A DNA stretch of 64,000 nt from a virus, in IMG/VR virus record IMGVR_UViG_3300032236_001159, positions 1-64,000 of that record; one strand, written 5' to 3'. The notes under the pieces are model-generated. The model had not been told where the DNA came from, made no database searches, and worked only from the letters and a program-made list of their open reading frames with translations. Positions 16,380-20,752 of this stretch are shown one piece after another. Positions within the stretch are counted from its first letter, which is position 1. Each line of letters opens with the position of its first letter. The translations under genes were made by a program, and so were the position numbers.

Positions 16380-18875
16380 CTATATGAAAAATGAGTCAAG
16401 TGTTACCGTTTTTTCTGTTCTCCAACCAATTGAATCCAAAATTACTTTCATTGGCTCCAAAAATGCTTTCTCAAATTGTAAGTCATAATCGATGTATTTG
16501 TCCAGTCCAAATTCTTTTGGAAATTGTTGAATATAAGAAATAACATTTTCTTGAATTGGATTTGGAAGTTTCAAATAGCAAAATTTAATTTTCTCACCAT
16601 TTTGAATTTTTGCATACTTCTTATCTAATTTCCTTTCTTTGATTAGATGATTGTAAAGAATTGCCCCCCTTGCGTGAATTGGAGTTCCTTTACTGTAAAG
16701 AGTTGATGAAGATTTGTATTTATTTACATCAGAAACTGTTCTTGGAAATGATACATCTTCGACTGGAAGTGCGTTAAATGTTTTCCGCGAATTTGATATA
16801 AAAGAAATCAAATCATCTTCTGTTTTTGTCATCACTATTTTAAGTGCGTCTTTAATCATTTGACGACAAGGGGCAGGAGTTGAAGATTTAACAGCTTCAA
16901 TGCCTGTTATTTTAAGTTTAGGTTCTTCATAACGAACACCTTCACTGTCCCAAACATTTAAGATATATCGTTTTTTGGCAGTCCAGATTCCACGTTCCGC
17001 GATATTCTCACGTTTCATTTGCATCTTCTGGTCATATGCATTTACATATTCCGCCAGTTCTTGATAACAACTATCAATATATTTTTCAAGTTCAACTTTA
17101 CAAAGTTTATCTAGAAATGAAACAATATTTTTAGTATCTTTTTCCTTTCCTTTATACACTTTATCAACCAATGGACCTAAGTTAAGATAGATAGAATCTG
17201 TATCAGAAGCAATCACATAATCAATATTATTAGTTTTAAGAATTCTATTCAAGTATAAGTTCATTTTACTTTCAATCCAACGAATGGAAACTTGTCCAGA
17301 CATTGTAATTGCTTCGGCATTTGCTAGTTTATAATACCTGAAATACTGATTTCCAATAGCACCGTAAGCACTATTAAGAGAAATCTTTTTCGCCATTTGG
17401 ATGTTGTTGCATCTTGCAATTTCCTTTTCCAATTCTTTTGTCTTGGTTTTTTCATATTGCTGTTTTGCGACCAACATCTTTTTCTTGAAGATTACACGGT
17501 CATTATACATTTTTTCCATTAATTCAGGAAGAAACCCACGAACATCTTTGCGATACATCGCACCATTCGCACAGACGGCATAATCACTATACTTATCAAA
17601 AGTAATATCTTGATTTAAAATTTTATCAATAGTTACGGAAGGATGTCTTTGTTCAATCAAAGTTTCTGGCGAAATGTTATATTGCATAATCAAATGTGGA
17701 TAAAGCGAATTCAAATCAAAATTAACAACATAATCATACTTTCCTGGAATTGGATCTTTTACATATGCACCAGCAAATTTATCACTCTTTTCAGAATGGT
17801 CTTTGGGAGGAATGACAATATTCCTCTTTTTCAAATAATTATAAATGATAGCATCCCAAGTTCTCACTTGATAGAAAACATCGTTGAAATTTACTTTTGC
17901 GTCATACGCCATCGTAAAACAAAGTTCAATCAACTTCATTTTATCTTCTAGTTGATCTACAAGCTCTACGTCTCGGATATTATAATCAATAAACTTCTGC
18001 CAATCTTTTGTGTAAAAATCCTTAAAGGTCTCAAACTCAGAGTGGTCCAATTTCTGTTGTCCCAATTCCACACTTGCAATATGATCTAGACGATAAGATT
18101 CCTGCGCCTTATAAGTAAATTTCTTATAAAGGTCAAGATAATCAATCACAGAAATCCCAGCAATTTCATAAGAGATTTGCTCTCTTCCTTTAATCACAAG
18201 TTCTTTTCTGCGAATGTTTCCCCAAGGTGAAAGACGATATGCCTCTTTCTCACCTAAGATTCTTTCAATTCTTCCAGCAATATAAGGAATGTCATACAAT
18301 TCACAGTTCCATCCTGTAATCACATCGGGAGTTTCCCTTTCCCAAAATCCAAGAAAGTGTTGGATCAAATCAATTTCATCCTTACACTCAATATATTCAA
18401 CATCCTTACGAGTATTAATATAAGGACGAGAAGCAAAGCACACCAGTTTCTTTGTTGCATAGTTTTGTAGTGTGATTGCTAGAAGTTCTTCCGCACAATC
18501 AAATACATTTGGAAATCCATTCTCGGAGGCAACCTCAATATCAATTGTTACGAGGCGAATTTTCTTAATATCAAACTCAATTTCATCTTCTGGATATGTT
18601 TGTGAAATATATTGTGCTTTATAATTATCATTTCCATATACAGAAAATCCATCAACATTTGAATATTTTTGAAGAAAATCTTTACACTCTGATATTTTTC
18701 CTGGTTGAATCGGTTCTACTGATTCTCCACTCAAAGTTTTATACTTACTTTCTTTTTTTGAGGAGACATAAAAGGTAGGATAAAAATCTTCTATTGATTC
18801 AAAATACTTTCCGTCTTCATACCCTCTCACATAAATTTTATTAAATTTCTCATAAACTGATGTATAAAAACGCAT
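16380..18875 (-). CDS. gp43: DNA polymerase, family B (T4 gp43)
   Basis: Replicative polymerase with 3'-5' proofreading, 831 residues (T4 about 898). Exonuclease motifs are visible: TIDIEVASE (Exo I), GWNCELYDIPY (Exo II) and YNIRDVELV (Exo III). Polymerase motifs are visible: FDLNSLYPHLI (A), KISLNSAYGAIGNQYF (B) and ASDTDSIYLN (C). The C-terminal tail (EKTVTLDSFFI) resembles a sliding-clamp-binding peptide. ATG 18875 is preceded by GAGGA. It is the main product of the unit started at the promoter 19519-19547 and is uninterrupted by inteins or introns. Confidence 0.97.
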   Translation of the reverse strand: MRFYTSVYEKFNKIYVRGYEDGKYFESIEDFYPTFYVSSKKESKYKTLSGESVEPIQPGKISECKDFLQKYSNVDGFSVYGNDNYKAQYISQTYPEDEIEFDIKKIRLVTIDIEVASENGFPNVFDCAEELLAITLQNYATKKLVCFASRPYINTRKDVEYIECKDEIDLIQHFLGFWERETPDVITGWNCELYDIPYIAGRIERILGEKEAYRLSPWGNIRRKELVIKGREQISYEIAGISVIDYLDLYKKFTYKAQESYRLDHIASVELGQQKLDHSEFETFKDFYTKDWQKFIDYNIRDVELVDQLEDKMKLIELCFTMAYDAKVNFNDVFYQVRTWDAIIYNYLKKRNIVIPPKDHSEKSDKFAGAYVKDPIPGKYDYVVNFDLNSLYPHLIMQYNISPETLIEQRHPSVTIDKILNQDITFDKYSDYAVCANGAMYRKDVRGFLPELMEKMYNDRVIFKKKMLVAKQQYEKTKTKELEKEIARCNNIQMAKKISLNSAYGAIGNQYFRYYKLANAEAITMSGQVSIRWIESKMNLYLNRILKTNNIDYVIASDTDSIYLNLGPLVDKVYKGKEKDTKNIVSFLDKLCKVELEKYIDSCYQELAEYVNAYDQKMQMKRENIAERGIWTAKKRYILNVWDSEGVRYEEPKLKITGIEAVKSSTPAPCRQMIKDALKIVMTKTEDDLISFISNSRKTFNALPVEDVSFPRTVSDVNKYKSSSTLYSKGTPIHARGAILYNHLIKERKLDKKYAKIQNGEKIKFCYLKLPNPIQENVISYIQQFPKEFGLDKYIDYDLQFEKAFLEPMKVILDSIGWRTEKTVTLDSFFI

Positions 18876-18881
18876 TTATCC

Positions 18882-19196
18882 TCATTTGGAAAGTTTTAAA
18901 TATTCTTCGAGTAAATCTTTTTTTGGATCTACTAATGTTAAAATTTTATCAGAACTTAAAGCAATTTCTTTTTCATTTGTATAATCACCAAACAACCAAG
19001 GCACTAGATAATTACCTTCACCGATTCCTTTTTTAATTTGAAAAGGTTTAATTAATAAACAATCAGGTTGCCCAATATCAGCTAAAACTTCCCTTACTTT
19101 ACTGATTAAAACTAATTGATTCGTTAAGATCAATACTTGAATTGTCGTTTCTTCTACTTGCTCGTCCATCGGCAGGTCCATCATTTCCTCTTCCAT
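18882..19196 (-). CDS. Lsm/Sm-like small protein (copy 2)
   Basis: 104 residues from ATG 19196, chosen because a GAGGA lies 9 bases upstream; 19211 and 19169 are alternatives. After an acidic leader (EEEMMDLPMDEQVEE) comes an Sm-like layout: a strand with LILTNQLVLISKVREV, then LIKPFQI, LVPWLFGDYTN, ILTLVDPKKDLLEEYLKL. It shares this order with the overlapping gene 19099-19497 and with 30999-31394. About 98 bases overlap the upstream gene in a +1 frame. Sm-fold proteins bind RNA or act as small scaffolds; the function in phages is unknown. It directly precedes gp43. Confidence 0.75.
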   Translation of the reverse strand: MEEEMMDLPMDEQVEETTIQVLILTNQLVLISKVREVLADIGQPDCLLIKPFQIKKGIGEGNYLVPWLFGDYTNEKEIALSSDKILTLVDPKKDLLEEYLKLSK

Positions 19197-19497
19197 TAAA
19201 TTTTTCCTCATAAGATTTTTTTACCATTTCTACTGGTTCTACAATTGAAACCACCCAATCAGTTCTCACCACAATATCCTTTTCCAAAGATAACGGCAAC
19301 CAAGAAGAAAAGGAAACTTTATATTCCATCTCTGGGGATTCGGCCACATCTTCAACTAAAATTTGTGGAGTGATAAGCTTAACAACATATGGATTTGAAA
19401 ATAAAAGAGAAACTATCTTTTCTTCTTCATTCACAATCTCTTTAATATCGGCAATCACTTCTTCTCCCGATTTAAGAAGTGCTAATTTAATTGACAT
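19099..19497 (-). CDS. Lsm/Sm-like small protein (copy 1)
   Basis: 132 residues from ATG 19497 (MSIKLALLKSGEEV), preceded by a GGAGA Shine-Dalgarno; an ATG at 19512 would be at the predicted transcript 5' end and is unlikely. The core shows LLKSGEEVIADIKEI, LFSNPYVVKL, FSSWLPLSLEKDI and VVSIVEPVEMVKKSYEE, the Sm-like pattern shared with two other genes here. The last 30 or so residues (GRGNDGPADGRASRR) are low complexity and lie over the start of the next gene. It is the first gene of the gp43 operon. The Sm-fold call is inference from pattern only. Confidence 0.72.
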   Translation of the reverse strand: MSIKLALLKSGEEVIADIKEIVNEEEKIVSLLFSNPYVVKLITPQILVEDVAESPEMEYKVSFSSWLPLSLEKDIVVRTDWVVSIVEPVEMVKKSYEEKFNGRGNDGPADGRASRRNDNSSIDLNESISFNQ

Positions 19498-19518
19498 AAA
19501 ATCTCCATACATTCATAT

Positions 19519-19547
19519 AGTATAACAAGAAAAAAGAGGGGTGTCAA
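19519..19547 (-). promoter_or_regulatory. Sigma70-like promoter for the gp43 unit
   Basis: -35 TTGACA (19542-19547), 17-base spacer, -10 TATACT (19519-19524). The -35 lies inside the terminator hairpin 19535-19573. The predicted start is close to 19512, giving a short leader before ATG 19497. Confidence 0.8.
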
Positions 19548-19573
19548 GACTGATTCTGCCAGTCTTCCCCTCT
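19535..19573 (-). terminator. Intrinsic terminator after hsp20, overlapping a promoter
   Basis: Outer stem AGAGGGG/CCCCTCT (19535-19541 and 19567-19573), inner stem AAGACT/AGTCTT, then a T-run on the minus strand. The gap 19513-19610 also holds a small hairpin (19594-19611) of unknown role. Confidence 0.85.
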
Positions 19574-19610
19574 GCGGCGACAATAGTTAATTGGGGTAGC
19601 CCACAATTAT

Positions 19611-19733
19611 TTATCTTTTTCTTTTAAATGCACATACTTTTTTATTTGGTGCCATTTTATATTTCACGGTTTTACCATAACAATTAACTGGTTGATCACT
19701 CATCTTTTCATCAGCACCAAAATCACCCTTCAT
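19611..19733 (-). CDS. Possible 40-residue basic protein
   Basis: ATG 19733 to TAA 19611 reads a 40-residue protein beginning MKGDFGADEKMSDQ and ending CAFKRKR; a shorter form could start at an internal ATG (19703). It has two Cys and a Lys/Arg-rich end. It overlaps the hsp20 stop by 11 bases and is followed by a small hairpin and then the terminator at 19535-19573. No clear Shine-Dalgarno. It is a candidate only; the alternative is a 3' untranslated region of hsp20. Confidence 0.4.
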   Translation of the reverse strand: MKGDFGADEKMSDQPVNCYGKTVKYKMAPNKKVCAFKRKR

Positions 19734-20208
19734 TTCCCGAATTGTCTTCACGAACTCCTGAAATGATTTCATAAACTTTTCTCTTTGGATTCTCTGGAAT
19801 AACTCTATTTAGTTTAATAGTAAGCAATCCATCAATATAAGAAACATCTCCAAGAACTACATCATTAGATAAAGTCCAAGTTCTTTTCAATCTTCTTTTT
19901 GCTATTCCTCTATGAATATATTCTATATCATTTTTGGATTTTTTATCTTCTGCTACATCAAGGGTAAGTATATTTTCTTCTGTAAATACCACAATATCTT
20001 CTTTTTTGTATCCAGCAAGTGCAATTTCTAATCTAAATTTATCACTACTTTCTTTGACTAGATTGTATGGTGGATAATTTGTGTGCGTATCAAAAGCACT
20101 ATCAAATTTTTTAAACCACTCATCCATTCCAATGCTATTTTTCTGTATATCTAACAAATACTTTGCAGTTTCTGGTACTGTCATAGTAAATGAATTTGTT
20201 CCGAACAT
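19723..20208 (-). CDS. hsp20: Small heat shock protein, Hsp20/alpha-crystallin family
   Basis: 161 residues. An ATP-independent holdase chaperone; phage copies are common in T4-like cyanophages and are thought to stabilise host or virion proteins during infection. Seen: the alpha-crystallin domain from about residue 48 (YPPYNLVKESSDKFRLEIALAG), the KEDIVVFTEENILTL strands and the GLLTIKLNRVIPENPKRK end, with an I-x-L-type C-terminal region. A strong AAGGAGG precedes ATG 20208. It has its own upstream -10-like TATAAT (20265-20270) and follows the regA terminator, so it is expressed separately from regA. Confidence 0.93.
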   Translation of the reverse strand: MFGTNSFTMTVPETAKYLLDIQKNSIGMDEWFKKFDSAFDTHTNYPPYNLVKESSDKFRLEIALAGYKKEDIVVFTEENILTLDVAEDKKSKNDIEYIHRGIAKRRLKRTWTLSNDVVLGDVSYIDGLLTIKLNRVIPENPKRKVYEIISGVREDNSGNEG

Positions 20209-20264
20209 AATAGACCTCCTTAAAGCGTCTGTAAGTGAATAATGTCCCCGAAGGCAACATCACT

Positions 20265-20270
20265 ATTATA
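20265..20270 (-). promoter_or_regulatory. Possible -10 element (TATAAT) for hsp20
   Basis: Perfect TATAAT on the minus strand, 57 bases upstream of ATG 20208 and just past the regA terminator. No convincing -35 is present, so it may need an activator. Confidence 0.45.
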
Positions 20271-20290
20271 TATCAGAAATCATAAAAAAA

Positions 20291-20307
20291 GGGAGTGTTG
20301 AACTCCC
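20291..20307 (-). terminator. Intrinsic terminator after regA
   Basis: Stem GGGAGT/ACTCCC (20291-20296 and 20302-20307), five-base loop, then seven T residues on the minus strand (20284-20290). Confidence 0.88.
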
Positions 20308-20314
20308 TACAAAA

Positions 20315-20752
20315 TCATTCGGTTTCCTGTGGTTTGGTCTTTTTACCGATATTGTATTTAGTTTCAAGTTCCCATTCACCCTTATCTTTAAATGCAAGAA
20401 CTTTAATTTGATTCAAAGGTGCAATATCAATAATTTTTTCAGGAGAAATTATAGTAATAAGTCCCCAATCAGCAAGAAGTTGAACAATACGATTACGACG
20501 TTGAATATCATTTACCGTAAGATTTGCGTGTTTGCCATCAAGTGCAAATAATTCTTTAAAATGAACAAGATAGTATCTGCCTTGCTTATGAAGAATATGG
20601 CAAGATTGATAGATTTTCTTTTCCTTTCGTGAGGCAACTCCGATACGTGTCAAAGTTTCACGAACTTTCAGGAAGTCATCAGGTTCATTTAGGATCACTT
20701 CTACCATTTGGTCAGGTGTCCAATTTACAACAGGTTCTTGAACTACACTCAT
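20315..20752 (-). CDS. regA: Translational repressor RegA
   Basis: 145 residues (T4 RegA 122). It binds start regions of early phage mRNAs and represses their translation, including in T4 gp44/gp62/gp45. Seen: VEVILNEPDDFLKVRETLTRIGVAS, a ...QSCHILHKQGRYYLVHFKELF core and NDIQRRNRIVQLLADWGL, all typical of the family. ATG overlaps the gp62 stop (ATGA). The gene ends just before a strong terminator at 20291-20307 and closes the clamp and clamp-loader unit, as in T4 (45-44-62-regA). Confidence 0.95.
   Translation of the reverse strand: MSVVQEPVVNWTPDQMVEVILNEPDDFLKVRETLTRIGVASRKEKKIYQSCHILHKQGRYYLVHFKELFALDGKHANLTVNDIQRRNRIVQLLADWGLITIISPEKIIDIAPLNQIKVLAFKDKGEWELETKYNIGKKTKPQETE

Follow-up and report, generated by a model that had tools for sequence, protein, structure and literature searches.

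An intrinsic-terminator hairpin upstream of the DNA polymerase gene of a T4-like cyanophage spells, in its 3' side, the -35 hexamer of a sigma-70-like promoter; the overlap is evident in its anatomy, its conservation in relatives, the covariation of its stem and its recurrence elsewhere. We consider it probable that this terminator–promoter hybrid keeps two transcription programmes apart with as few bases as possible. The window (i.e. the whole stretch of 64,000 nucleotides analysed) is part of an 85.7-kb virus record (hereafter the own record) and its genes run as in a T4-like cyanophage (regA, hsp20, a pair of small genes, then gp43 and uvsX, all on the minus strand); the studied site sits between hsp20 and the two small genes preceding gp43 (Table 1).

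Read 5' to 3' on the minus strand, the hairpin consists of AGAGGGG AAGACTG GCAGAAT CAGTCTT GACA CCCCTCT (19573–19535). RNA folding of 86 nt gives -22.1 kcal/mol (z = -2.65; 2 of 200 shuffles are as good), with an outer stem AGAGGGG/CCCCTCT and an inner stem around GCAGAAT that carries a 3' bulge. The hexamer TTGACA is made of the end of the inner stem and the bulge, the 17-nt spacer CCCCTCTTTTTTCTTGT includes the T-run, and after the T-run come CTTGT, TATACT, GGAG and the ATG at 19497. An earlier note had placed TTGACA in the 3' part of the hairpin, the T-run in the spacer and TATACT as the -10, and each of these lies where it was said to lie. Like other intrinsic terminators, the site has a stable GC-rich hairpin with a U-run directly after it, both in the window and in relatives; unlike them, its 3' bulge spells part of a -35 and its U-run doubles as a promoter spacer. 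Like a host sigma-70 or T4-type early promoter with an extended -10, it shows TTGACA, a spacing of 17 nt (i.e. within 16–18 nt) and TGnTATACT with a TATAAT-like -10, an 11/12 match that is conserved in relatives, but its -35 is built from the 3' arm or loop of a terminator.

Table 1. Features at and around the hsp20–gp43 junction of the window
Feature	Position	Strand	Basis
hsp20, small heat-shock protein	19723..20208	minus	PF00011 E 7.8e-10; phrog_432 E 5.3e-46
40-aa ORF overlapping the hsp20 stop; own TAA within TAAATA	19611..19733	minus	by eye
TAAATA, late-promoter-like core	19608..19613	minus	sequence; compare T4 TATAAATA, S-PM2 NATAAATA
Putative 73-nt late RNA, beginning 6 nt past TAAATA and ending with the T-run	19530..19602	minus	promoter spacing and terminator
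Conserved 5' element AACTATTGTCGCCGC (family consensus TGAATATCGTCGNCGC)	19574..19588	minus	conservation; single copy by nhmmer
Intrinsic-terminator hairpin with 3' GACA bulge	19535..19573	minus	folding; outer-stem covariation in relatives
-35 TTGACA inside the hairpin 3' side	19542..19547	minus	promoter scan; relatives
T-run, whose first T is the last base of the stem; lies within the promoter spacer	19530..19535	minus	sequence
-10 TATACT, extended by TG at 19527–19526	19519..19524	minus	promoter scan, sequence
Predicted transcription start of the Sm-like/gp43 unit, ~7 nt past the -10	~19512	minus	inference
First gene, Sm/LSm-like, 132 aa, ATG 19497, GGAG 19506–19503	19099..19497	minus	phrog_431 E 4.7e-31
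Second gene, Sm-like/DUF6561, 109 aa	18882..19211	minus	DUF6561 E 4.3e-25; 3by7 by sequence E 1.8e-4
gp43 DNA polymerase	16380..18875	minus	similarity to annotated gp43

The promoter had been called near-consensus, and with TG it is indeed the sole 11/12 match among 52 promoter-like sites in the 14–24 kb region, a total that is itself near chance (shuffles 44.3, sd 6.5). A simple terminator scan of the same region did not list the site hairpin, and its definition allows no bulge; a terminator bulged in this way escaped that scan, and folding brings it out. The own record taken alone yields one embedded site among 18 terminators, which falls short of significance (69 of 300 shuffles yield as many or more); the case rests on relatives.

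Relatives were taken as the best 80 of 599 gp43 matches in IMG/VR, a choice made on the polymerase without regard to the site, and the 68 with at least 750 nt upstream were tested for a sigma-70-like promoter scoring at least 9 of 12 (with a TG bonus) and having a -35 that begins within the 3' half of a terminator hairpin. Such a promoter was found in 67/68; inspection places those of loci L021 and L038 at other positions, which leaves the same site in 65/68, and one relative (L020) has no embedded promoter. For comparison, under a looser hairpin definition that score is reached by 9/203 hairpins of phage S-SM2 and by 2/65 hairpins of the own record, the site included. The motif TTGACN occurs in 58/68 relatives (another pattern gives 59, the extra one, in L038, lying outside any hairpin) and is absent in 10/68, some of which have weak -35s such as TTGCGC. 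Four relatives (L012, L014, L016 and L023) have a simple hairpin and keep TTGAC in its loop. The overlap thus survives a change of hairpin design, and its conservation supports the earlier suggestion that the same bases may end one unit and start another.

The hairpins themselves were compared in a set of 113 de-duplicated modules (see below), partly chosen with TTGAC. A hairpin fold is obtained for 112 of them (mean -19.5 kcal/mol), and the promoter is present in 111, with a spacer of 17 in 104/111, TG in 95/111 and TTGACA (37), TTGACG (28) or TTGACT (26) as the most common -35s. In relatives, the -35 is spread over the hairpin, with positions 1–2 mostly at the closing end of the inner stem, positions 3–5 mostly in the bulge and position 6 mostly paired in the outer stem; this last base is paired in 93/111, variously by T-A, A-T, C-G, T-G, G-C or G-T. 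It is Watson–Crick paired in 40 of the 56 sequences that share one register, against a mean of 23.1 and a maximum of 36 in 10,000 shuffles. For the outer stem, 49 register-fixed sequences give 55 double-change cells, compared with 16.3 in shuffles, which ignore the relatedness of the sequences, and at most 7 with a slid partner, a control that allows for it. The number of outer-stem pairs with a double change (five) is not above shuffles (4.0; 132/500). This register-fixed set selects for the inner stem and TTGAC, so that evidence is taken from the outer stem only; it replaces an RNAalifold run on the full MAFFT alignment, which gave three pairs and no covariation because the outer stems are out of register there. 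By these comparisons, the stem is under selection for its pairing, and one of the paired bases is at the same time part of the -35.

The hairpin in relatives is a compromise between terminator and -35. The bulge measures at least 3 nt in 72 of the 111 promoter-bearing hairpins and 1–2 nt in the other 39, compared with 0–2 nt in ten hand-picked promoter-less modules, of which 0/10 have TTGAC (locus L136 was left out of the latter set, as it has by eye TTGCCC, 17 nt and TATAAT). The larger bulge looks like the price of carrying a -35. A serious rival explanation is mere compaction, in which intergenic space is costly and terminator and promoter both work with no mutual influence; we put its chance at somewhat under even. 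An equal saving is made at other genes (e.g. hli03 in S-SM2), and terminators elsewhere run directly into late promoters (e.g. L119, L176 and L178), as compaction would have it. By itself, however, it leaves unexplained why the -35 is retained within the hairpin across hairpin designs, which compaction together with selection on both signals would explain.

The hairpin had been described as the terminator of hsp20. It does lie downstream of that gene, but it closes a conserved single-copy module with its own late-promoter-like core (i.e. TAAATA, GAATATCGTCGNCGC, hairpin and U-run) rather than merely the hsp20 3' end, and in other genomes the module is found after genes other than hsp20. The S-PM2 late promoter is given as NATAAATA in excerpts of one report (PMC2984593). 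Among 134 usable contexts, the distance from TAAATA to TGAATATCG downstream is 10 nt in 111 and 11 nt in 12, i.e. in 123/134 together, and the bases preceding TAAATA vary; by comparison, of 923 stops of mechanical ORFs (80 aa or longer), 44 carry TAAATA (8/275, 4/81, 15/269 and 17/298). It lies within 14 nt of TGAATATCG in 159/160 contexts with a T-run, the exception (L164) being cut by the contig end. In the window the distance to the conserved element is ~20 nt, farther than in relatives, with a small GGGCTACCC repeat between. Applied to this core, the T4 spacing rule would place the first base of the late transcript on the G of GAATATCG or beside it; a late RNA of 55–75 nt would then begin at GAATATCGTCG. 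Seven example RNAs of 54–73 nt were folded, and the putative 73-nt RNA of the window folds at -23.9 kcal/mol.

With nhmmer, S-SM2, S-SRM01, S-SKS1 and the own record contain one copy each (E 5.8e-21 to 1.4e-14; next best 0.057), and an exact pattern has one match in 9/11 records and none in the two whose copy is a variant. BLAST recovers the module in 294 of 50,697 phage records, all named cyanophages except one marine virus. No Rfam family reaches its gathering score at the module, while the same loci gave manA, wcaG and PhotoRC-II elsewhere; with an E-value threshold, positions 19490–20330 return two matches, both below gathering and both outside the module, and one of these, a small nucleolar RNA at 19645–19721, was taken as chance. 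A conserved peptide was also rejected, as the reading frame breaks between module variants (by eye). With a promoter core and a terminator present and no reading frame kept across variants, the module looks like a candidate undescribed small late RNA of 55–75 nt, and it would offer a new target for holders of infection RNA-seq data. In two variants (L125 and L156) the hairpin is a short TTGGCAAAATCCAA one that lacks an adjoining T-run; TATAAT comes next, and a separate terminator stands beyond it. Several loci have, where the window has its 40-aa ORF, similar small frames rich in Lys/Arg or Gly (by eye).

These features raise the alternative that the RNA is primary, i.e. that the hairpin and GAATATCGTCGNCGC form a late small regulatory RNA and that a gp43-unit promoter settled on its terminator in some lineages. 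We give this about an even chance; it is compatible with the hybrid that we prefer and alters what the conserved sequence serves. It draws on the single nhmmer copies, the fixed TAAATA spacing, the lack of an Rfam match and a 5' part and loop conserved beyond the needs of termination, and also on the genomic distribution of the module, which is present in 15 of 19 named cyanophage genomes at differing places. Against it, an exact-pattern target search in phage genomes found no second match, TAAATA coincides with the upstream stop in 124/159 contexts (in the other 35 the TAA is not a long-frame stop, often TGATAAATA), and S-SSM4, P-SSM4, P-SSM2 and P-HM2 among the 19 have no clear copy.

The differing places are as follows. 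In S-SM2, S-SRM01 and S-SKS1 the module is flanked upstream by hsp20 (or by a small gene that follows hsp20) and downstream by the Sm-like genes and gp43; in P-SSM7, Syn19, S-CAM22 and S-RIM2, and similarly in S-WHM1 and Syn9, its place is behind a small gene on the psbA side; in S-PRM1 it follows psbA, and in S-RSM4 and S-PM2 hli genes. A convergent gene lies ahead of the S-PM2 copy, which lacks TTGAC; both points speak for the RNA being primary. Further named genomes with the module are S-RIM8, ACG-2014b, ACG-2014d and S-RIM12. A Sm-like gene lies within 400 nt downstream in 140 of 152 module contexts that have a T-run and enough sequence, and the promoter test is passed by 127/140 of these and by 4/12 of those without such a gene; the set includes loci fetched with TTGAC and the test requires TTG. 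Some of the 13/140 failures carry TAGACA or TGGACA (by eye). That the module is a partner of Sm-like genes only is ruled out by the other genes that follow it in P-SSM7, Syn19, S-CAM22, S-RIM2 and S-WHM1, and is also contradicted by the copies elsewhere in S-PM2, S-PRM1 and S-RSM4.

The same distribution bears on the possibility that GAATATCGTCGNCGC works instead as DNA, bound by an activator or by a replication protein that acts on the early promoter. Its place ~60–80 nt upstream of the early start and its high conservation would suit such a site, but GAATATCGTCGNCGC persists where the early promoter is absent, and its distance to the hairpin varies by 0–12 nt while that to TAAATA is mostly fixed. 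A replication origin at the module finds no support in GC skew: the cumulative curves of seven genomes reach their extremes close to the record ends and show nothing at the module. We regard a DNA site of this kind as decidedly unlikely.

The unit downstream had been described as the DNA polymerase unit. It does hold gp43, but as the third gene, and its first two genes are Sm/LSm-like. The predicted start at ~19512 falls on the ATG of a mechanical 137-aa ORF, so that the true gene start is probably the ATG behind GGAG. An AlphaFold2 model of the first gene product (39 aligned sequences; mean pLDDT 79.2) has 3by7 as its best Foldseek match (E 3.3e-6, TM 0.93 on the target, 23% identity), a structure whose title describes it as similar to Sm/LSm-like RNA-binding proteins; Pfam Sm_like, at E 3.2e-4, is below the curated cut-off. 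The first driven protein is thus predicted to have an Sm fold; its likeness to 3by7 is one of fold, with low sequence identity. Two overlapping Sm/LSm-like genes (19497–18882, minus strand) precede gp43 in the window and in most relatives examined.

Hfq-type proteins bind U-tails. A unit that opens with genes of an RNA-binding fold invites the reading that the hairpin is an attenuator, in which the gp43 unit is fed by readthrough, itself controlled by translation or by a protein such as the Sm-like product; we consider this unlikely, since the module also precedes unrelated genes.

We then surveyed canonical terminators (embedded promoter score of at least 10) in nine records. Embedded promoters occur in 33 of 381 terminators, against a summed shuffle mean of 2.97: S-SM2 4/50, own record 1/18, S-SKS1 8/45, S-SRM01 8/47, S-PM2 1/47, S-RIM2 2/51, Syn19 4/37, S-PRM1 1/51 and P-SSM2 4/35. 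The own record, S-PM2 and S-PRM1 are each not significant alone, and for S-SM2 shuffles reached the observed four at least once in a separate survey. Two of the 33 sites (S-SM2 58158 and S-PRM1 140879, both minus strand) look spurious. A clear case is S-SM2 167143, upstream of hli03: AGGAACCC TTGACA GGGTTCCT TTTTTACTA TATAAT. In T4, 0/41 terminators have an embedded promoter, with a shuffle mean of merely 0.11 there. A first survey of 203 S-SM2 hairpins was too permissive and was replaced by this stricter one.

The positions of Rfam RNAs bear on promoter activity. In 3/3 cases of manA (RF01745, a known cis-regulatory RNA) the RNA starts close behind a TTGACA promoter, 8, 7 and 8 nt past the -10 in P-SSM2, L066 and P-SSM7, respectively, and in L066 the promoter is the one within the studied module itself. 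The P-SSM2 promoter lies in a weaker hairpin that has a T-run, at the regA end, and is outside the survey count; the P-SSM7 hairpin looks weak. For wcaG, 3/3 RNA starts have no such promoter close by. Seven PhotoRC-II starts (L310, L311, L312, L313, L314, L384 and L390) have a promoter 18–37 nt upstream. Conservation and the manA positions lend indirect support to activity of the embedded promoter; they speak for promoter activity and not for mutual interference. The PhotoRC-II promoters read TTGACG-17-TATAAT, TATACT or TATGAT and lie 31–37 nt upstream in six loci and 18 nt in P-SSM7 (L311); in six loci TAAATAGG overlaps or follows the -10, and PhotoRC-II is a family known upstream of psbA. 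At ~142,807 of P-SSM2 (L394) a promoter embedded in a hairpin has a TTGACA that contains the TGA stop codon of regA, and its transcript would open with manA (by eye).

In the hybrid as we picture it, both signals presumably work in vivo and at different times. Early in infection, host polymerase with sigma-70 would start at the predicted site and make an mRNA for the Sm-like proteins and DNA polymerase; late in infection, transcripts from hsp20 and from the TAAATA promoter would end at the hairpin and U-run. The hairpin 3' side would lend TTGACA, and the U-run the spacer, to the sigma-70 promoter. Since the stop falls between -35 and -10, a terminating polymerase would cover the early promoter, and late activity should lower early initiation. 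Such occlusion is a likely consequence, and a switch in which late transcription shuts the early promoter is plausible on the geometry. More speculatively, terminator-embedded -35s could be a general early-to-late occlusion device in T4-like cyanophages, and the late transcript a movable single-copy RNA of 55–75 nt with a conserved unpaired 5' end and a U-tail perhaps bound by Sm-like proteins encoded beside it in some lineages; we hold this broader view to be rather doubtful. A hybrid that ends a late RNA and starts an early one would be a concrete, testable element for transcription timing, and natural variants are at hand (i.e. stem, loop and bulge forms, and module copies that carry or lack the promoter).

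Terminators with a promoter alongside are already known. The central terminator of filamentous phage adjoins the gene III promoter, and the likeness is that of a terminator beside a promoter in a compact phage. We found no description of a family-wide -35 within a terminator hairpin, or of the module RNA, in titles and abstracts of the open-access literature, which is weak evidence of absence. In excerpts of a study of S-PM2 and Syn9, early and late promoters are described before homologues of T4 middle genes (PMC2984593); the site resembles these in having a late core and a sigma-70 promoter upstream of a replication gene, but here a terminator stands between the two, so that transcripts from the late promoter should be cut short. 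The same excerpts describe the timing of early and middle transcription as unclear in cyanophages that have no alt, modA, modB, motA and asi homologues (PMC2984593). Structured or antisense RNAs known in T4-like cyanophages, from two reports (PMC9964418, PMC12197685) and from the Rfam matches above, are CfrI, PhotoRC-II, manA, wcaG and glnA. The module is set apart from the known RNAs by its absent Rfam match; CfrI is described as ~225 nt long and antisense at psbA (PMC12197685).

Some arrangements near regA and gp43 are also of note. Seven named phages whose gp43 is 57–61% identical to that of the window show by eye no terminator overlap in the gp43 region, a point against the hybrid, and their promoter-like sequence lies within an upstream ORF. 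Six loci with no module upstream of gp43 (L354–L356 and L358–L360) have there a small ORF that contains a promoter-like TTGACA followed by TATACT, TATAAT or TATGAT; in some, CCTC and GAGG flank the TTGACA (by eye). Upstream of the Sm-like gene of S-PRM1 (L353), a different hairpin, GGGGTTGCCTTTAGGGGTAACCCC with TTTT, runs directly into TATAAT, and TTGCCT lies 17 nt before it on the hairpin 5' side (by eye). At the regA–hsp20 junction of the window (20308–20251, minus strand), the terminator AGGGAGTTCAACACTCCCT and its T-run are directly followed by a TATATAAT box, and the conserved hsp20 leader that follows this terminator reads GATGTTGCC in the window and GGATGCC in many relatives.
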